Under the pieces are notes generated by a model. The model searched no databases, was not told where the DNA came from, and saw only the letters and a program-made list of their open reading frames with translations. Below, piece after piece: positions 23,564 through 33,637 of a stretch of 36,366 nucleotides of DNA. The position numbers and the translations under genes are program-made. Position 1 is the stretch's first letter. Every line of letters begins with the position of its first letter. This DNA comes from Lachnospiraceae bacterium (GTDB taxonomy: Bacteria > Bacillota > Clostridia > Lachnospirales > Lachnospiraceae): positions 1 through 36,366 of the forward strand of contig BLMD01000296.1 of NCBI GenBank assembly GCA_011959925.1. The letters are read 5' to 3'.

Positions 23564-25378
23564 TTATCGAGGAATCTTTAATACCTGCCCGATATTGATT
23601 ACGTCGCCGGTCAGTCCGTTTAGCTTCTGGATTGCGTCAACCGTTGTACCGTATGTTCTTGCGATTGCCCAGAGGGTATCTCCGGCGCGTACGGTATATT
23701 TTGTATAAGAGGGCGTCTGTGAGGCAGGGATTTTCAGCACCTGTCCGATGCGAAGCATGTCGCTCGTTAAGCCGTTATAGCTTTTGAGCACGTCGACGGT
23801 TGTGCCGTATCTTCTTGCGATTGCCCAGAGGGTATCTCCCGCCTGTACGGTATATTCTATCGTACCGGGTTCCGGTTTCGGAATCGGGACATTTTCGCCG
23901 ATTCCCAGATAGACCCGATACAGCTCCTGCCATGTTTTAGGTCCTGCGATGCCGTCCGGATCCAGGCGCATCAGCTGTTGAAACGCCCGTACCGCCTGCG
24001 CCGTGCCGCTTCCGAAAATGCCGTCCTGCGCGGGCGCGGGAATACCGGGATAATATTCGGAAATCACGTTTAAAAGATATTGCAGGGTAATGACATCCTG
24101 GCCTCTGCTTCCCTGACGGAGAACCGAGCCCGGCGGGACGGTTCCGATGCCGAGCGTCACACCTTCCCCGTTTAATTCCGCAAGCCGGGTAACTGCAGTG
24201 TAGAGGCTTGATATTTTGTACCATGTGCTTTTTCCGACGATGCCGTCCGCCGTCAGCTGAAACACACTTTGGAACTTTTTGACTGCCGCAGCTGTGCTGT
24301 TTCCGAATACACCGGGTTCGTCCGTAATCGCGGGAATCGCCGGATAATTTCGCCGGATCCGGTTGAGATAGGTCTGAATCGTCTGAACATCCAGTCCGCG
24401 GCTGCCCTGTCTGAGCGCGGAGCCGGGATAGGAAGAGAGTACGCCGGTGATAATATCCGTCTCTGCAATTTCGATATCTTTGGGATAATAGGAGCGCAGA
24501 ATCTGAAGCGGTGTTTTTCCCTGGTCTGCAAGCGTTACGGTTCCCCATTGGGATAATCCCTGGCAGGTTGCCGTTGTGCCGTTGCAAAACGAGGTAAAAT
24601 ACGGATTGTTCTGTCCTCTTCTGCGCACATATTCGTTAAATATTTCATCGACAATCCGGCTGATGGAGGAATAAATCGGACGGCCCTTTACAAAATACTG
24701 GTCATAGGCGGTACTGTTCGTAATATCAAAGGGATATCCCTTACTGCGGTACCATTCCGTGAAAACCCGGTTTAATGCAAATGTAATAATGGCATAGATA
24801 TTTGCCCGCAGAGCGGCATCCGGCCAGGTGGGATAAATTTCACTGCTTGCCACGTTCTTTACATAATCCGGAAAAGAAACGCTTACGTTGGATGCCGAAG
24901 AAGACGGGGAACCAAGATGTACGGTAATGGGGTTTGGTATGACGACCTGCCGTAAGACATAGGCACCGGACGGAGCTCCTGTTTGGGTTCGGGGCGCTGC
25001 CATAGCGACAGCAGGTTTTCCGACGTATATTTCCGACAGCAGCGGCGTGCGCTGATTTTCCTCCATGGGGAGAAGCGTAAGCGGCAGAATTGCCGTTTCT
25101 CCTTCATAAATGGGGATATCTGCGACAGAGAGGCTTTGAAAACCCGGTTTCTGTGCCATAACATAATAGCTGATATAAGGAGTTTCGGAGTAATACGGGT
25201 TTCTGGAAAAATCTCCGCTGATAGTTTCTAACGGGACTTTTTCGCTTTCCCCGCTTTCATCTGTCGTCAGTTCATACACGCGGTTGCCAAGGCCGTCTAA
25301 AATGCGGATATTCACGCCGCTGAGCGGGACGGCATCGTGAGCGGTTCTTGCCTGGAGTATCATATAACCGATAGCCAT
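23564..25378 (-). CDS. SleC-like spore cortex-lytic enzyme candidate (SpoIID, PG-binding and LysM domains)
   Basis: The 604-residue protein has four parts. Residues 1-105 form a beta-sandwich, carboxypeptidase-regulatory-like region. Residues 170-305 are a SpoIID/LytB-type lytic transglycosylase domain, with candidate catalytic Glu180 in SSEIYPTWPDAALRANI and the typical end CQGLSQWGTVTLADQGKTPLQILRSYYP. Two PG_binding_1 domains follow (about 321-394 and 418-490), then two LysM domains (508-551 and 560-603). There is no signal peptide. This resembles clostridial SleC, a cortex-lytic germination enzyme made in the mother cell as a proenzyme, but with a duplicated binding domain and added LysM repeats. 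A mother-cell-type promoter precedes it. It could instead be a spore-coat or cortex morphogenesis factor. The GGAGA ribosome site is good. Confidence 0.78.
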   Translation of the reverse strand: MAIGYMILQARTAHDAVPLSGVNIRILDGLGNRVYELTTDESGESEKVPLETISGDFSRNPYYSETPYISYYVMAQKPGFQSLSVADIPIYEGETAILPLTLLPMEENQRTPLLSEIYVGKPAVAMAAPRTQTGAPSGAYVLRQVVIPNPITVHLGSPSSSASNVSVSFPDYVKNVASSEIYPTWPDAALRANIYAIITFALNRVFTEWYRSKGYPFDITNSTAYDQYFVKGRPIYSSISRIVDEIFNEYVRRRGQNNPYFTSFCNGTTATCQGLSQWGTVTLADQGKTPLQILRSYYPKDIEIAETDIITGVLSSYPGSALRQGSRGLDVQTIQTYLNRIRRNYPAIPAITDEPGVFGNSTAAAVKKFQSVFQLTADGIVGKSTWYKISSLYTAVTRLAELNGEGVTLGIGTVPPGSVLRQGSRGQDVITLQYLLNVISEYYPGIPAPAQDGIFGSGTAQAVRAFQQLMRLDPDGIAGPKTWQELYRVYLGIGENVPIPKPEPGTIEYTVQAGDTLWAIARRYGTTVDVLKSYNGLTSDMLRIGQVLKIPASQTPSYTKYTVRAGDTLWAIARTYGTTVDAIQKLNGLTGDVINIGQVLKIPR

Positions 25379-25508: not shown

Positions 25509-25525
25509 TTTACAAAACATTTACA
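25509..25525 (+). promoter_or_regulatory. PhoP-like tandem operator upstream of the response regulator gene
   Basis: TTTACA (25509-25514), five bases, TTTACA (25520-25525); a weaker third unit TTATAG follows in register at 25531. Direct repeats of TTWACA with an 11-base period are the binding pattern of Bacillus PhoP and fit OmpR-family dimers. A matching site occurs at 27524-27540. Confidence 0.55.
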
Positions 25526-25556
25526 AAACCTTATAGTTTTCCCAAACATACTATAT

Positions 25557-25562
25557 TATACT
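25557..25562 (+). promoter_or_regulatory. -10 box of the two-component system promoter
   Basis: TATACT lies 31 bases after the tandem operator, with no recognisable -35 box at the expected position. That is the usual form of an activator-dependent promoter. TATATT at 25552-25557 is an alternative. Confidence 0.4.
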
Positions 25563-25625
25563 ATACGAAAGGCGTCTGCCTGGCAGGACGTTTTAAAAAT
25601 TATGCTATAGAAAACGGAGACAAAA

Positions 25626-26291
25626 ATGAAAAAAATATTGGTGATTGAAGATGAAATTGCGATCAATGATTTGATCTGCATGAACTTGGAGATTGCGGGT
25701 TATACGCCGGTTCCGTTTTTTGACGGGGCGGAATTTGACCTTCATTTAAAAGAAAACGACAGCTACGATCTGGCGCTGCTTGATATCATGCTGCCAGGGA
25801 AAGACGGGTTTGAACTTTTGAAAGAATTAAAAGCGCACAAAATCCCTGTGATCTATCTTACGGCAAAAGGCGATCTGCCGAGCAAAGTCAAAGGTTTAAA
25901 AAGCGGCGCCGAAGATTATATTGTAAAGCCTTTTGAAATGCTGGAGCTTCTTGTACGGATGGATAACGTCTTAAAACGCTGCGGCGGCAGAGAACCGGAA
26001 GAAATCCATATAAAAGACGTTGTGATCGACGAAAAAAAGCGGACCGTGTCAAAAGGCGGAGCGGTAATTCCCATGCAGCCAATGGAATACGATTGCCTGA
26101 TGGCGTTCTGGAAATACAGAAACCGGGTGATGACCAGGGAGTTTCTGCTGAATCTGCTCTGGGGCGTGAATTTTGAAGGGGAGAGCCGGACGATCGACGT
26201 GCATGTAGCGAATATTCGTAAAAAGCTGGATTTTTTTGACGTTATTATCACCGTGCCGAGAGTCGGCTACCGCATGGAGGTTTCAGAATGA
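25626..26291 (+). CDS. OmpR/PhoB-family response regulator
   Basis: The 221-residue protein has a receiver domain (1-115) with acidic pocket Glu8/Asp9, phospho-acceptor Asp53 in LALLDIMLPGKDG, and the conserved Thr and Lys in YLTAKGD (about 99-103). A winged-helix DNA-binding domain (about 128-219) ends with SRTIDVHVANIRKKLDFFDVIITVPRVGYRME, which is typical of the OmpR/PhoB group. It overlaps the kinase gene by four bases (ATGA), so the pair is translationally coupled. The tandem TTTACA repeat upstream, and its twin before the downstream lipoprotein gene, are its likely binding sites. Confidence 0.95.
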   Translation: MKKILVIEDEIAINDLICMNLEIAGYTPVPFFDGAEFDLHLKENDSYDLALLDIMLPGKDGFELLKELKAHKIPVIYLTAKGDLPSKVKGLKSGAEDYIVKPFEMLELLVRMDNVLKRCGGREPEEIHIKDVVIDEKKRTVSKGGAVIPMQPMEYDCLMAFWKYRNRVMTREFLLNLLWGVNFEGESRTIDVHVANIRKKLDFFDVIITVPRVGYRMEVSE

Positions 26292-27538
26292 ATATGATAA
26301 AAAAAATTGCATGCACTGCGTCAATTCTGTTGTTTGTATTGGCGCAGGTTTTTTCTTTTTATGTGATTTATACCAGCCATACGGAAAAAATTGAATTGAT
26401 CCGGGAAAAAGAAGGAAAATCTTTTGCAGAGGCGGTTCATAGATTTTCCATAGCAGTGACAAATCTGAACAGAAAAACGGAAGTGCGCGATTATATGGTT
26501 ACGCATTGTTTTCGGGAAAATATGATGAGGGACAGTGCGTTATATAAAGGAGAAGAGGAGCTGTTTAACAGCAGTTCCTATGACTTTGACGTAACGAAGA
26601 CAGATTGGGAGATGAAGGAATATCCGGTTCCGTTTGCAGCGGAGCAGCCGGGCGAACGCCATGTGCTGATCTTTTATACCGAATATCAACACGGGGAAAC
26701 GTATTATCTGTATCATATATCGGATATTACTTCCGTGTATTCCAAAAGTTTTTCCCTGATCGTGCGCCAGCTTCTCGTTTCCTCTCTGGCGTCTTTAGGA
26801 ATGGCGGTTTTGCTGACGCATCTGATTAAGAAAATTACAAAGCCGCTTTGGGCGGTCAACGAAGCCCAGCGGCAGCTCATCGGCAGTATGTCTCATGAAT
26901 TGAAAACACCGCTGACCGCGATCAAAGGCTATTCGGAGACGCTGCTTGCGGTAAAGCTTTCCAAAGAGCAGCAGGAAAAAGCGCTGCGGTATATCCATGG
27001 GGAGAGCGGAAGGCTTTCGCGTCTGTCGGAAAAGATGATGGAGTTAACGCGGCTTTACGAGCCGGAATGTAAGATTGATCTGACAGAAGTTTCCGTGGAA
27101 GCGCTGTTTGATGCAGTGGAGAAAAGCGTGAAACACAGCCTCTGCGAAAAGAACATGACGCTGATAAAAGAAGGCGGATACCAGGGGGAAACAAAGCGCA
27201 TGGACATGGACCTGATGACCAGTTTTTTAATCAACCTGGTAAATAACAGCATTCTTGCGTCCGCGGAAGGAAGCCGGATTTATATGGGGGCAGATGCCGA
27301 TTCGCTGTGGGTGAGAGATGAGGGATGCGGCATTTTGCCGGAAGAATTGGAGAAAGTAAGGAAGGCATTCTATCGGGTGGATCCGTCGCGTTCCAGAAAA
27401 AGTGGAAATATGGGACTGGGGCTTGCCCTCTGTGATCAGATTGCCTCCGCGCATCAGGGAAAGCTTGAACTGGAAAGTGAAGTCGGAGTCGGAACGAAAG
27501 CGGTTCTGTTTTTTAAAGGCAGTTTTACAAATCCTTAA
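26288..27538 (+). CDS. Membrane sensor histidine kinase
   Basis: The 416-residue kinase has TM1 (about 7-29), an extracytoplasmic sensor region of about 125 residues with no recognised domain, and TM2 (about 157-178). The dimerisation/phosphoacceptor helix follows with His203 in SMSHELKTPLTAIKGYSE. The catalytic ATPase domain has the N box INLVNNSILAS, the G1 box VRDEGCGI and the G2 box GNMGLGLAL. It should phosphorylate the regulator encoded immediately upstream. No HAMP domain is obvious; only a short linker joins TM2 to the H box. The second operator overlaps the last codons of this gene. Confidence 0.95.
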   Translation: MNMIKKIACTASILLFVLAQVFSFYVIYTSHTEKIELIREKEGKSFAEAVHRFSIAVTNLNRKTEVRDYMVTHCFRENMMRDSALYKGEEELFNSSSYDFDVTKTDWEMKEYPVPFAAEQPGERHVLIFYTEYQHGETYYLYHISDITSVYSKSFSLIVRQLLVSSLASLGMAVLLTHLIKKITKPLWAVNEAQRQLIGSMSHELKTPLTAIKGYSETLLAVKLSKEQQEKALRYIHGESGRLSRLSEKMMELTRLYEPECKIDLTEVSVEALFDAVEKSVKHSLCEKNMTLIKEGGYQGETKRMDMDLMTSFLINLVNNSILASAEGSRIYMGADADSLWVRDEGCGILPEELEKVRKAFYRVDPSRSRKSGNMGLGLALCDQIASAHQGKLELESEVGVGTKAVLFFKGSFTNP

Positions 27539-27540
27539 CA
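27524..27540 (+). promoter_or_regulatory. PhoP-like tandem operator upstream of the lipoprotein-ABC operon
   Basis: TTTACA (27524-27529), five bases, TTAACA (27535-27540), overlapping the kinase stop codon; a degenerate unit TTAAAG precedes in register at 27513. This is the same 11-base architecture as at 25509-25525. Confidence 0.55.
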
Positions 27541-27571
27541 ATAGAATGAATACTTGAAAAAGAAACATGGA

Positions 27572-27577
27572 TAAAAT
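27572..27577 (+). promoter_or_regulatory. -10 box of the lipoprotein-ABC operon
   Basis: TAAAAT lies 31 bases after the tandem operator, the same distance as for the response regulator gene. It lacks a good -35 box and lies 60 bases before the ATG. Confidence 0.4.
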
Positions 27578-29143: not shown

Positions 29144-30028
29144 ATGAAATCGGTTTTTGCCGTGCTGCGATGGAATTTTCTTGGTTTTCTGAAAAATCCC
29201 AGGATACTCCTTACGTTTTTATTCTCCTTTATTCTCTGCTTTTTTTTAAGCGAACGTGCCATGCAGGCAGCAGAATATTACGATTCTCCGATGCAGGCGT
29301 TTGAACCGTTTATCTGGACGTTTGGGGATACGGTGTCGATCCTTTTGTGCACCATGCTTTTGATCCTTTTGTTTATCGATTTGCCGAAATTAAGCCCGTT
29401 CACACCGTATCTGCTGCTTCGGATGAAAAAAAGCCAGTGGCTGTTTGCACAGTTTCTCTATATAATCTGCGCCGCATTGCTGTATATGGGGTATGTATTC
29501 TTTGTGACCGGAATTTTGTGTATGAAAAAAACATACATCGGAAATATCTGGAGCAAAACGGCGGCGCTGCTTGCCTATTCTGAAATGGGAAAACAGATGT
29601 CCGTGCCGTCTACCGTGAAAGTAATGGAAAGCACGTCTCCGGCTGCCTGCAGCCTTCAGATTATGCTGCTTTTCGTCTGTTATGCGCTGACGCTTGGTTT
29701 TCTGATGCTGTTCTTTCAAATGAAAATCGGTAAAAAAGCGTCGGTTGCCGCCGGGCTTTCTTACAGCCTGATCGGATTTTTACTGGATCCGGACACACTG
29801 GCGCATCTGCTGCAGAAGGAAGAATACCAGATGTACCAGATGCGGCGGCTGGTCGGCTGGATCAGTCCCTTAAACCATGCAACTTACGGGATGCACGATT
29901 TCGGCTACGATGCGCTGCCTTCTATTTGGCAGTCCTGCGCGGTATTTCTCGGGATTCTTCTGGTGTTTGCATATCTTTCTTTTCGGACGTTGAAGCAATA
30001 TCATTTTCATTCGTTTACGGGGGAATAG
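29144..30028 (+). CDS. Polytopic membrane protein, probable ABC-2-type transporter subunit
   Basis: The 294-residue protein has about six hydrophobic helices. The N-terminal part is like ABC-2 permeases (MKSVFAVLRWNFLGFLKNPRILLTFLFSFILCFFLS) with a short amphipathic start and then TM1. No sequence motif identifies a substrate. A second membrane protein and an ABC ATPase follow in the same operon, so it is probably one half of a heterodimeric exporter. Three-base gaps separate it from both neighbours. The ribosome site is weak, which suggests translational coupling to the lipoprotein gene. Confidence 0.7.
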   Translation: MKSVFAVLRWNFLGFLKNPRILLTFLFSFILCFFLSERAMQAAEYYDSPMQAFEPFIWTFGDTVSILLCTMLLILLFIDLPKLSPFTPYLLLRMKKSQWLFAQFLYIICAALLYMGYVFFVTGILCMKKTYIGNIWSKTAALLAYSEMGKQMSVPSTVKVMESTSPAACSLQIMLLFVCYALTLGFLMLFFQMKIGKKASVAAGLSYSLIGFLLDPDTLAHLLQKEEYQMYQMRRLVGWISPLNHATYGMHDFGYDALPSIWQSCAVFLGILLVFAYLSFRTLKQYHFHSFTGE

Positions 30029-30031
30029 TCC

Positions 30032-30748
30032 ATGGGAGAAATCGGAAAAGAAAAGGCGTTTTATCTTATGACGGCATCCTGTTTTTTTGCGGCTGCGGCA
30101 TCTGTTCCTTTTTCTAAGATGGAGTTTCCGCTTGCCGCCGGAAGTTTTTTACAGTATGTGAAATCGGCGTTTTCCTCACAGGGAATGTTGTTTTTGATTC
30201 CGATCGTTTCGGTTCTGACTGCGGGGGCGTCTTATGTAAGAGAATCGTCCGGCGGTTTTTTAAAATTGTACGCGGTTCGGATCAGCCGTGCGGAGTATAT
30301 CAGACGAAAGACGATGCAGGTCTATGCGGGCGGATTTCTCCCGTTTTTTTTCGCGGGACTTTTGTCTCTTACAATGGGATTTTTATTTTTATATCCGCTG
30401 GAATACAAAGGGACGATCGAAATGAAGACGGTGTGGGACGCCGTGCTTCTGCTGTTGCGCATTTGCCTGACGGGAGGAATTACGGCAGAGGTATCCGGGA
30501 TTTTTGCCGCGGCTTTCTGCAATTATTATATGGCGTACGGCCTGCCGTTTGTCTGTTTTTATCTGCTGATTATTTTAAAAGACAGATATCTGCAGGATTT
30601 GTATGTGATAGATCCGAAGGAGTGGATACTGACAGAGAACTACTGGGGAGCGGGCGGAAACGGAATATGGGTATTTTTTCTCGTAAGCTCTGTGTTCTTT
30701 TGTCTGCTGCACGGATTGCTGTTAGGGTATCGCCTGCGGGAGATTTAA
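30032..30748 (+). CDS. Polytopic membrane protein, second probable ABC-2-type subunit
   Basis: The 238-residue protein has about six hydrophobic helices (near 13-30, 48-68, 103-125, 140-165, 172-188 and 210-232). The segment SYVRESSGGFLKLYAVRISRAEYIRRKTMQVY resembles the cytoplasmic coupling region of ABC-2 permeases (compare ...E...G....R..SR..Y...K...). It is smaller than the preceding subunit and not clearly homologous to it by eye. The two probably form the membrane channel for the ATPase encoded next. It starts three bases after the upstream stop codon. Confidence 0.7.
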   Translation: MGEIGKEKAFYLMTASCFFAAAASVPFSKMEFPLAAGSFLQYVKSAFSSQGMLFLIPIVSVLTAGASYVRESSGGFLKLYAVRISRAEYIRRKTMQVYAGGFLPFFFAGLLSLTMGFLFLYPLEYKGTIEMKTVWDAVLLLLRICLTGGITAEVSGIFAAAFCNYYMAYGLPFVCFYLLIILKDRYLQDLYVIDPKEWILTENYWGAGGNGIWVFFLVSSVFFCLLHGLLLGYRLREI

Positions 30749-30841: not shown

Positions 30842-31522
30842 ATGAAACATATAAAATTACCGAAAAAAAATACGGTCATGCCGTCCGGCGAATATGTAAT
30901 CATCCGCCACTTGATAAAAAAGTTCGGCGAAGATATCGTACTCTCAGACATTAATATGACGATGGAAGAGGGGATGGTTTATGGAATTTCCGGAAACAAC
31001 GGTTCCGGAAAAACGGTATTGATGAAATGTATCTGCGGTTTTGTTCCGGTTACCGAAGGAAGCATTACGGTCGGAGGAAAAATGATCGGTACACAAATCG
31101 ATTTTCCGGAGAGTATCGGTGTGATCATTGAGACGCCCGGATTTCTGACGAATTTGACCGGGATACGGAATCTGGAGATTCTGGCGGGACTGAAGGGAAA
31201 CATTTCAAAAGAGGATATTCGCGCCGCAATCCAGAAAGCGGGGTTAGATCCGGACTTAAAAAAATCTGTCGGGAAATACTCTCTGGGGATGCGGCAGCGT
31301 CTGGGCATTGCCCAGGCAATTATGGAGGATCCCAAGTTTTTGATTCTGGATGAGCCGTTTAACGGTTTGGATAAGCACGGCGTAGCAGATATCCGTGCGT
31401 TGATACTTGGGTTAAAGGAACAGGGGAAAACGATTCTTCTGGCGAGTCACAACAGCGAAGATATCCGGCTGTTGTGTGATAAAGTGTTTGAAATGGACGG
31501 AGGGAGGATGCGGGAGTTATGA
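30842..31522 (+). CDS. ABC transporter ATP-binding protein
   Basis: The 226-residue nucleotide-binding domain has Walker A GNNGSGKT (51-58), a Q-loop region near ESIGVIIETPGF, the signature YSLGMRQRLGIAQAI (146-160, the SLGM variant common in ABC-2 exporters), Walker B FLILDEP (166-172), a D-loop and a switch His in LASHNSED. It powers the exporter formed with the two preceding membrane proteins. I chose ATG 30842 because GGAGG lies 12 bases upstream; an in-frame ATG at 30782 has no ribosome site. The stop overlaps the start of the next gene (ATGA). A 93-base gap separates it from the permease gene, with no terminator. Confidence 0.93.
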   Translation: MKHIKLPKKNTVMPSGEYVIIRHLIKKFGEDIVLSDINMTMEEGMVYGISGNNGSGKTVLMKCICGFVPVTEGSITVGGKMIGTQIDFPESIGVIIETPGFLTNLTGIRNLEILAGLKGNISKEDIRAAIQKAGLDPDLKKSVGKYSLGMRQRLGIAQAIMEDPKFLILDEPFNGLDKHGVADIRALILGLKEQGKTILLASHNSEDIRLLCDKVFEMDGGRMREL

Positions 31523-32973
31523 GAAGCAGAAGGAAATGGGTGCTTTTTATTTCAATCTGTATAGGGATTGCCTGTGTTTTTGGCTCTGCCGTTATTGTCC
31601 GGGCGGAGGGGACGGTCAGGATCGACGCCAATAAAAAATATAAGGGCATGAACGCTTCGTTTGCCAAAGGATATACGCCTTCGATAAAAAAAGATACGAT
31701 GCAGCTGGTGATTCCGTTTCGGACGGACGGGGCGCCTGAAGGCCAGACGCTTTTGGTCGGCGTGGTGTTTGAACGGGAGGAAAACAGTCCGTTTTACTTT
31801 AAAACGTATCAGAAACAGGTAAAGCGGTCCAAAAACGGCGTTTATTTGTATCGATGCCGGATCCGGCTGAAAAAGTACAGGGTAAACGGGCAGTATCCGC
31901 TGCAGTTGTATGCATTGGTGAAAACGCCGCAGGGTACGGTCCGGGAAGAATTTACGATTTATGTGGAAATTTCAGACGGACGTGCGGCGTTTGATCTGTA
32001 TGAAGAGAATGCGGAAGAGAGCACGGGATTCGACGGCGGAGAGAAAGAAGAGACAATGGAAGCATCCGGTCAAAAAGAAGAGACCATACGCCAGCCGAAG
32101 ATTCTGCTGGAGCAAAACAGCCTGCAGAACCAGGAGGTGCTGGCGGGAAGCAGTCAGGCATGGACGTTGAAAGCAAAAAACTGCAGCGCGGATCAGGAAA
32201 TCCAGAATATGAAAGTGACGCTGCTTGCGGATGAGCAAGATATCGTTTTTGAGAAAAATGCCTGGTATTTTGACCGGATAGGCGCCGGTGACACGGCAGA
32301 TTTGTCACAAAATATTACGGCAGGAAAAAAAGCTTTGGAGAAAGCTCTGCCGATCCAGTTTCAATTTGATTATGAAGATAAGAAAGGGACGGCATATTCG
32401 ACAACGGAAACGGTGTATCTGTCGATCCGGCAGATGCAGCAGGCGAGCCTTGTTCATTTTGCCGTCCCGGAGAGTTTTTATGAGTCCGATACGCATTCCG
32501 TGGAGTTTCAGGTACAAAATACAGGGCTTGCCGTTATTTACAATGCAAAAGTCCGACTGGAAGGGCAGGGACTGTTTGCAGGAGAGGTATTTCTCGGTAA
32601 CATAGAAGCCGGAACGTCGCAGGACGCACAGATGCAGATTTTTGCGGGAACGCTGAATATGGACGCACAGGGAAACGTTGCGGATGAACATGCAGAAAAA
32701 TACGGAGATGTCTCCGGCAGAGTTGTTTTTTCCTATGAAAACGAACAGGGAGAGGTAATCGAACAGGAACAGGCCTTTACTACGGCAATCCGAAAGCCCC
32801 AGACGATAGATCTGGTAATTGAGGAGGAAGCGCCCGAGACGAATCAGTGGTGGGTGACAATCGTTATATTGACAATCCTGACGCTGCTTTTAGCGATTGC
32901 TCTGCTGTATTTTAGAATGAAGCATTATCAGAGGATAGGACGGGAAATCTATGAAAGAACGAAATATTTATAA
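31519..32973 (+). CDS. Large extracytoplasmic protein with a C-terminal membrane anchor
   Basis: The 484-residue protein has an N-terminal signal peptide (RRKWVLFISICIGIACVFGSAVIVRAEG), then beta-rich extracellular domains and a single C-terminal transmembrane helix (about 447-468) with a basic cytoplasmic tail. The stretch from about 200 to 430 resembles repeated CARDB/NEW3-type Ig-like modules (...ILLEQNSLQNQEVLAGSSQAWTLKAKNCSADQEIQNMKVTLL..., ...HSVEFQVQNTGLAVIYNAKVRLEG...). Such modules often accompany ABC exporters as COG1361-type proteins. A Glu-rich linker lies near 155-195. It overlaps the ATPase gene by four bases and the next gene by 23 bases, so they are tightly coupled. Function is unknown; it may guide exported substrate. 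Confidence 0.75.
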   Translation: MRSRRKWVLFISICIGIACVFGSAVIVRAEGTVRIDANKKYKGMNASFAKGYTPSIKKDTMQLVIPFRTDGAPEGQTLLVGVVFEREENSPFYFKTYQKQVKRSKNGVYLYRCRIRLKKYRVNGQYPLQLYALVKTPQGTVREEFTIYVEISDGRAAFDLYEENAEESTGFDGGEKEETMEASGQKEETIRQPKILLEQNSLQNQEVLAGSSQAWTLKAKNCSADQEIQNMKVTLLADEQDIVFEKNAWYFDRIGAGDTADLSQNITAGKKALEKALPIQFQFDYEDKKGTAYSTTETVYLSIRQMQQASLVHFAVPESFYESDTHSVEFQVQNTGLAVIYNAKVRLEGQGLFAGEVFLGNIEAGTSQDAQMQIFAGTLNMDAQGNVADEHAEKYGDVSGRVVFSYENEQGEVIEQEQAFTTAIRKPQTIDLVIEEEAPETNQWWVTIVILTILTLLLAIALLYFRMKHYQRIGREIYERTKYL

Positions 32974-33637
32974 GGATATTGTCTGGGCTGTGTTATTTTG
33001 TATCATTGCAGCGGCAGCGGCACGCTGGGGCAGGGAATATGCCAAGGAGAACAGGGCGTATGGGTTATGGATTCAGGCGGCAGAGGATTTGAAGAAGGAA
33101 CTTGTGGAGGAATTTCGGAAAATTTCTGGTTTCTGCCGTTTTCTTCCTGCAAAGACAGCGTGGGTTACAATACAGATCGATACGTATACGATGCAGGCAG
33201 AAGTGATCGGGGTGGATATTCGGCAGTATCCCGTCAAATGGGAAAAGATATCCGGCGCACAGGAAGAAATTGCGATGGGCAATACGCCGCTGTTATTTTT
33301 TGGAAAAGATGCGTTTACGGAATTGGAAGACCAGATGGGGTACGCGCCGTTAGAAAGTAAAATCAAACAGTGGATACAGGAGTATCCGACGCTTAAAGTG
33401 AGCGTAACGGACGAAAATGGACAGAAAAGAACGGCGAAAATCTGCGGTATTCTGTCGCAGCCGGAGAATAAAATTTATATGGATCACCGGCAGATGCAGG
33501 AAGTGTTTGGTACCGCTTCACATTGCAGCGGCGGATTTCTTGAAATCTACGGATATAAAAATACAAAAAAAGCCCGCGGCCTTTTGGAGGACGCGGGTTT
33601 TATAACAGAGGATGACCGGACGTTTTGCCGGGACTAA
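32951..33637 (+). CDS. Small single-pass protein with a possible MacB/FtsX-type extracellular domain
   Basis: The 228-residue protein has one N-terminal transmembrane helix (about 8-27) and an extracytoplasmic domain of about 200 residues. The alternation ...AEVIGVDIRQYP..., ...GNTPLLFFGKDAF..., ...RTAKICGILSQPENKIYMDHRQMQEVFG... resembles the periplasmic core domain of MacB/FtsX permeases. The three C-terminal helices that make up the permease are missing. It may be a truncated permease or a dedicated adaptor. It overlaps the upstream gene by 23 bases, and its stop overlaps the convergent asnA stop by four. The assignment to a family is tentative; the gene itself is well supported. Confidence 0.65.
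   Translation: MKERNIYKDIVWAVLFCIIAAAAARWGREYAKENRAYGLWIQAAEDLKKELVEEFRKISGFCRFLPAKTAWVTIQIDTYTMQAEVIGVDIRQYPVKWEKISGAQEEIAMGNTPLLFFGKDAFTELEDQMGYAPLESKIKQWIQEYPTLKVSVTDENGQKRTAKICGILSQPENKIYMDHRQMQEVFGTASHCSGGFLEIYGYKNTKKARGLLEDAGFITEDDRTFCRD

Follow-up and report, generated by a model that had tools for sequence, protein, structure and literature searches.

A conserved pair of PhoP-box-like operators precedes a two-component system and a DUF6034 lipoprotein-ABC operon in Lachnospiraceae

Results

Two direct-repeat boxes in the window

The window analyzed here, a 36,366-nucleotide stretch of a Lachnospiraceae bacterium genome (contig BLMD01000296.1 of assembly GCA_011959925.1), carries two direct-repeat operators that, judged by comparison across genomes, are real, conserved, and related to the Pho box yet separable from it. 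Operator A lies before the genes of a two-component system and operator B before a lipoprotein-ABC operon (Table 1). Phylogenetic footprinting and a DNA-only search of other genera give strong support for the two-component genes and the lipoprotein-ABC operon being under common control. It is probable that the local OmpR/PhoB-type regulator activates both units through this shared operator at two activator-dependent promoters. The first-pass annotation of this DNA had suggested self-activation plus activation of the export operon; the footprinting and the DNA-only search bear out the common control in that proposal, and from it we infer the activation.

Table 1. Coordinates of the operators, promoter elements and cassette genes in the window.
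Feature	Coordinates	Strand	Remarks
Operator A, TTTACA-N5-TTTACA	25509..25525	+	about −60 to −44 if +1 lies near 25569
A-promoter conserved element TATCGTTTTC, window form TATAGTTTTC	25532..25541	+	
Regulator promoter −10, TATACT	25557..25562	+	31 nt past operator A
OmpR/PhoB-family response regulator, 221 aa	25626..26291	+	Pfam Response_reg and Trans_reg_C
Sensor histidine kinase, 416 aa	26288..27538	+	HisKA and HATPase_c
Operator B, TTTACA-N5-TTAACA	27524..27540	+	overlaps kinase stop codon
B-promoter conserved element TGAATAYTT, window form TGAATACTTG	27547..27556	+	
Lipoprotein-ABC promoter −10, TAAAAT	27572..27577	+	31 nt past operator B
DUF6034 lipoprotein, 500 aa	27638..29140	+	PF19499, 411.6 bits
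Hydrophobic protein, read as ABC permease	29144..30028	+	no Pfam hit; conserved between lipoprotein and ATPase genes
Second hydrophobic protein, read as ABC permease	30032..30748	+	no Pfam hit
ABC ATPase, start codon uncertain	30842..31522	+	lantibiotic-protection model TIGR03740 is the best, 175.2 bits, far below cut-off 309.75
Protein with CARDB-like stretch, conserved cassette member	31519..32973	+	
Last cassette gene	32951..33637	+	no family found

A check of the sequence places the twin boxes exactly where the first-pass annotation had put them, and recomputing the gaps confirmed its claim that each box lies 31 bases before a −10-like hexamer (TATACT at 25557 and TAAAAT at 27572). The window holds exactly two matches to the box at no more than one mismatch, namely A and B. 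At least two such matches also occurred in 24 of 100 shuffles of the window. The window by itself is therefore weak proof of twin boxes, and orthologues were needed to decide the matter. Box A is followed within the window by further TAnnnT hexamers at 26, 28, and 33 nt, and the 31-nt gap seen there is partly a choice among hexamers; this doubt is removed by the orthologous sites, which keep a TAnnnT hexamer at 31 nt (31–32 nt for box B). The earlier statement that the repeated spacing is unlikely by chance holds for the orthologue statistics given below and not for the window alone.

Across the host genome (3.92 Mb in 418 contigs), exact TTWACA-N5-TTWACA occurs at 10 sites and a reversed control pattern at six. 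Three of the 10 exact sites have a TAnnnT hexamer at 31–32 nt, and these are box A, box B, and the pstS promoter. The possibility that the operators are a known structured RNA was ruled out, as a search of the window at gathering scores gave only the tRNA at 2527–2597.

Box A upstream of regulator orthologues

Conservation of the repeats in related genomes had been put forward as a check in the first-pass annotation, and this check, when run, found box A before 19 of 24 regulator orthologues and box B at 22 of 23 operon heads. The orthologues for box A, at about 80% identity or more, come from 31 genomes that were picked for carrying the cassette or belonging to the genus and not at random; the regulators at loci L295–L297 (49–58% identity) were left out of the set. 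Within 260 bases of the regulator gene, exact TTTACA-N5-TTTACA precedes 17 of the 24. All 19 boxes, counted at no more than one mismatch, have TAnnnT at exactly 31 nt, against a mean of 0.06 boxes per set at the same tolerance, none of them with a −10, in 300 dinucleotide-shuffle sets. Furthermore, the 25-nt upstream flanks are 27% identical on average, compared to 87% for the boxes themselves.

In four of the five orthologues that have no box A, a co-directional gene lies immediately upstream of the regulator, and in the remaining one (L292) the −10 is retained but the box has decayed; both descriptions were reached partly by eye. At locus L240 in genome G210, the regulator gene lies directly 3′ of a 1021-aa ORF and box A is missing. 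The end of this ORF resembles a receiver domain, and its product is possibly a hybrid kinase.

The claim that neither promoter has a good −35 is correct for the −10 hexamers that the first-pass annotation named. However, the first TTTACA of box A pairs with TATAGT (25532–25537) across a 17-nt spacer to give a sigma-70-like match of 10/12. It is very unlikely that this TTTACA is simply the −35 of a basal promoter, TTTACA-N17-TATNGT, beside which the repeat would be incidental. The match in the window fits such a promoter, as does the TAnnnT hexamer found at the basal −10 place in 8 of the 14 rows of the A alignment (13 sites before a regulator and one before a lone kinase). In the remaining 6 of 14, however, no TAnnnT stands there, box B has no such hexamer, and the second repeat and the TATAAT hexamer 31 nt away vary less. 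A basal promoter may exist in A alongside the regulated one.

No box A with a −10 was found for the L295–L297 regulators, nor upstream of 11 distant regulators that were fetched, one of which had only 0.2 kb of upstream sequence. A model of the A promoter (R2), run on 397 genomes, gave two strong matches, one in the host genome and one in G176; the G176 site was outside the R2 training set but already known from the orthologue survey. Because R2 found two genomes and the 11 distant regulators lack the box, self-control through box A looks limited to the near relatives of the window. The self-control suggested earlier thus stands for near orthologues only, whereas box B reaches further.

Box B at the head of the lipoprotein operon

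For box B, we used 23 operon heads taken from the window and from the 21 loci (L086–L106) that a lipoprotein scan of genome contigs returned. The 22 boxes have TAnnnT at 31 nt in 20 cases and at 32 nt in two, and the remaining head (L090) shows no box B in its 330 upstream bases, where the contig begins. Genomes G210, G211, and G176 likewise carry box B with TAnnnT at 31 nt. Of the 22 B sites, 20 contain the pentamer GAATA, as do 28 of the 29 rows of alignment A1. When 14 A and 22 B rows were aligned, the columns upstream held 0.24–0.26 bits each, compared to 1.74–2.00 in the repeats. Near-duplicate loci were kept in these tallies (L092/L096 and L098/L099), as they were among the pst loci described below (L298/L299).

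The kinase stop codon (27536–27538) lies inside box B, which could suggest a coding constraint at the 3′ end of the kinase gene, and the shuffles of the window could suggest chance. We give almost no credence to either. Box B meets the kinase stop in differing frames or lies beyond it, and the C-terminal tail of the kinase is not conserved; a coding constraint therefore does not explain box B and was ruled out. The orthologue statistics for boxes A and B speak against chance.

The boxes follow these genes even after rearrangement. At three loci where the regulator has no adjoining kinase (L273, L276, and L293), box A is still upstream. Box B likewise persists at three loci (L091, L094, and L105) with a lipoprotein operon but no regulator within reach. 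Two kinase genes at a distance from the regulator each carry a separate box, at L100 with two mismatches and TATAAT at 31 nt, and at L105 with TAAGAT at 32 nt.

Distant cassettes and a DNA-only promoter model

Five cassettes whose DUF6034 proteins are roughly 26% identical carry TTTACAATTTGTTTAAA, then TGAATACTTG, then TAnnnT at 32 nt. Across DUF6034 loci L012–L040, a box at no more than one mismatch with TAnnnT at 31–32 nt was seen in 8 of 29, of which four have no placed DUF6034 frame and some have little upstream sequence. Box B is therefore not a universal mark of DUF6034 genes.

A model of the B promoter, built on sequence only from 29 sites, was run on 397 genomes of the family, the genome draws being samples. 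Seventeen matches reached E ≤ 1e-4, a line that was set after the list was seen; seven are training sites and 10 are held-out. Nine of the 10 held-out matches, some of them in genomes of the same genus as a training genome (G396 and its training relative G056, G369 and its training relative G014), lie in the same kind of cassette, and eight stand directly before a protein that passes the DUF6034 cut-off. A second site in G014, also held-out, lies between a kinase and a permease gene, and a match in G061 (C73:3446-3486, E 1.1e-5, model positions 10–50) has no cassette gene nearby. In the host genome, the model finds a single strong match of 49.1 bits, with the next at 19.8.

Below the line, nine weaker matches were inspected, and a cassette gene was present at one (a second site in G295) and absent from eight (L329–L335 and L376). 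Matches with E-values up to 0.01 are commoner than those values predict, so the E-values in this range are too favourable. The B-promoter model, given nothing but DNA, thus detects cassettes in other genera of the family, which opens the DUF6034 lipoprotein and its transporter to direct tests. Within two of the distant cassettes (L375 and L373), second B-type boxes stand before ABC permease genes, which suggests that the lipoprotein and the transporter can form separate units.

The regulator and the kinase

The 28 cassette regulators, near and distant together, form one clade with support of 100/99, and the PhoB proteins form another, also with 100/99. Against the PhoB model TIGR02154, the window regulator scores 180.3 bits for a cut-off of 296.2; the pst-linked regulator of the host, at 239.0, is likewise under the cut-off. 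Because it lies outside the PhoB clade and below the PhoB cut-off, the cassette regulator is classed here, by sequence relationship, as not a PhoP/PhoB system as such. Recognition helices are alike throughout, reading ESRTIDVHVANIRKKL in the window, ESRTVDVHVGNIRKKL in most near regulators, and ETRTVDVHIGQLRKKL in most distant ones, and that of the host pst-linked PhoB, ETRTVDVHIGTLRTKL, shares most of the window regulator's. The kinase scores 136.4 bits against a WalK cut-off of 725, and its structure model (pLDDT 74.7, pTM 0.42) has a mixed helix/strand stretch between two long helices. No operator or target for this regulator subfamily was found in the literature searched, and the subfamily is hereby given a predicted one of each.

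Genes of the cassette

Relatives show the same gene order in the cassette, with either one or two DUF6034 genes. Beside operator A in the window is a divergent gene (23564–25378, minus strand) with LysM, peptidoglycan-binding, and SpoIID-like domains. No paper that treats DUF6034 by name was found in the literature searched.

A structure model of the DUF6034 lipoprotein (pLDDT 84.6) gave two matches in the PDB at E ≤ 0.001. The nearest fold is 5coz, an uncharacterised protein of Eubacterium rectale (E 4.3e-11), and the other is chain B of 9a5d, a WalK-YycH model (E 5.2e-6, TM 0.27–0.29, rmsd 30.1). YycH modulates WalK, and the two systems are alike in that an extracytoplasmic protein is encoded beside the kinase. 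In predicted fold, a WalK-YycH entry is the nearest to the lipoprotein after 5coz. However, this likeness to WalRK-YycH/YycI is at most one of fold, at a low TM-score, and the cassette kinase falls far under the WalK cut-off. The WalR consensus differs from the TTTACA repeat. By sequence, Pfam returned DUF6034 and one chance-level match for the lipoprotein with no match to YycH or YycI, and a profile search of the PDB with the lipoprotein found no YycH/YycI chain. That the lipoprotein might modulate the kinase, as YycH does WalK, is offered as a lead only.

The cassette gene set also resembles the Cpr/LanFEG peptide-resistance modules, which, in the part of the source available, comprise a regulator, a kinase, an ATPase, two membrane subunits, and sometimes a lipoprotein (PMC5786555). 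The likeness to CprABC/CprRK and LanFEG-LanI lies in the clustering of a two-component system, an ABC ATPase, two membrane subunits, and a lipoprotein, as far as that partial text describes them (PMC5786555). Unlike these modules, the cassette has an ATPase far under the TIGR03740 cut-off, permeases without a Pfam family, and a DUF6034 protein that is not LanI.

Comparison with the Pho regulon

Bacillus subtilis PhoP uses TTWACA-type direct repeats with an 11-nt period. The first-pass annotation had called the window repeats PhoP-box-like, and the label is apt because the pstS and Na/Pi cotransporter promoters of the host bear the same direct repeat. At pstS the distance to the −10, TATGAT, is 32 nt, and the cotransporter has TTTACT-N5-TTTACA at 31 nt from its −10. 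Downstream of the Na/Pi cotransporter and its Pho-type box, host contig C182 (L241) carries another PhoB-like regulator along with a kinase-like ORF. In 15 genomes of the genus, we counted 97 distinct box sites, of which 22 have a −10 at 30–32 nt: 13 are cassette A or B boxes, five belong to pstS or Na/Pi genes, one ends a pst-phoBR contig, and three are apparently incidental.

It could be argued that the operators are Pho boxes read by the host PhoB proteins, and that the cassette is part of the phosphate-starvation regulon. The same repeat at the same distance before the host pstS and Na/Pi genes, and the presence of two PhoB-like regulators in the host genome, agree with this, but we consider it unlikely. 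Seven regulator-bearing genomes gave neither a PhoB match at E ≤ 1e-58 nor a pstB above the cut-off, yet they keep box B in 7/7 cases and box A in 5/7; stated completeness is 81–86% for five of the seven, so single absences may be gaps. The pst boxes of G212, G217, and G176 are of the TTAACA type, have a third repeat, and stand 33 nt from the −10, whereas the cassette boxes of these three genomes are TTTAC-type at 31 nt. GAATA, so common among the B sites, occurs in none of the 13 Pho-type rows. The persistence of the boxes without PhoB, the GAATA element, and the separate clade of the regulator led us to reject PhoB as the sole reader of the operators. Furthermore, none of the ten proteins tested in or beside the cassette is the product of a phosphate gene, and the pst genes lie on another contig.

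A third full TTWACA, 15–18 nt past the second, is found in 9 of the 13 Pho-type rows. At 5/6 letters or better, none of the 22 B sites has a third repeat and 3 of 13 A sites do, these 13 being the ones among the 19 A sites that lie in the window and the named loci. Of the 15 pst loci fetched, eight (L302, L303, L305–L307, L309, L311, and L312, several being near-copies across genomes) lack TTTACA-N5-TTTACA even at two mismatches and contribute none of the 13 Pho-type rows, so the Pho comparison rests on part of the pst loci.

The pstS promoters of the host genome and of G201 have no third TTWACA and resemble the cassette promoters, which makes cross-talk possible. The operators might then be used by the local regulator and PhoB alike, with phosphate status modulating the cassette. 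We regard this as possible but doubtful: the host pst-linked PhoB shares most of the recognition helix, but GAATA is absent from the Pho-type rows and the boxes persist in genomes where PhoB was not found.

Discussion

We propose that the local regulator is the reader of both operators, and that its binding would activate. The kinase encoded alongside would phosphorylate the regulator. Bound as a head-to-tail dimer to the pair of 11-bp-phased TTTACA repeats, at about −60 to −44, the regulator would recruit RNA polymerase to promoters with a −10 and no properly placed −35. At operator A, the regulator would raise its own expression and that of the kinase, and at operator B that of the DUF6034 lipoprotein-ABC operon. 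The signal may be envelope or peptide stress, sensed with the help of the lipoprotein.

In the portion of the source available, 11-nt direct repeats are bound head to tail by PhoB-type effector domains, and PhoB-type regulators act through the sigma subunit (PMC4415409). By analogy with these domains, as that portion describes them, the cassette regulator would compensate for the missing −35 (PMC4415409). The extra elements (TATCGTTTTC in A and TGAATAYTT in B) occupy about −37 to −28, a position at which further degenerate half-sites or sigma region 4 would make contact. The A element could also contain a basal −10, with the first TTTACA serving as the −35. Nothing usable was found in the literature searched on the GAATA element or on comparative OmpR-family motifs. 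TTTACA also stands near the promoters of XydR of C. cellulolyticum, but this protein is AraC-type according to the excerpt available, and it was rejected as a parallel (PMC3572039).

More tentatively, the cassette could represent an undescribed, family-wide two-component subfamily with a tripartite operator (two TTTACA repeats and GAATA, 31–32 nt from the −10), in which a YycH-like DUF6034 protein modulates the kinase in a feedback loop around an ABC exporter. This wider picture is conceivable, and we hold it with less than even confidence.

Like the Pho boxes of E. coli PhoB and B. subtilis PhoP, the cassette operators consist of two direct repeats of 11-nt period with a predicted OmpR-family reader and no properly placed −35, and the host pstS and Na/Pi boxes stand at nearly the same distance from the −10. 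In contrast to the Pho regulon, the cassette regulator belongs to a separate clade and its candidate target is a lipoprotein-ABC cassette. The promoters also differ, as those of B have GAATA and no third TTWACA, and those of A rarely have the latter. The arrangement illustrates how one cell can harbour both PhoB and a PhoB-like regulator despite close similarity between their operators, and the flanking elements perhaps tell the cassette and PhoB operators apart.

A separate observation concerns the phosphate-binding protein genes met in this comparison. PstS at L107:15325–16218 (minus strand), and also in G201 and G143, looks circularly permuted, a form that none of the papers listed in a literature search plainly addressed. 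In the L107 protein, positions 161–294 of TIGR02136 match the first half and positions 32–157 the second half, whereas the pstS genes of several other genomes of the family begin, by eye, with the first lobe.
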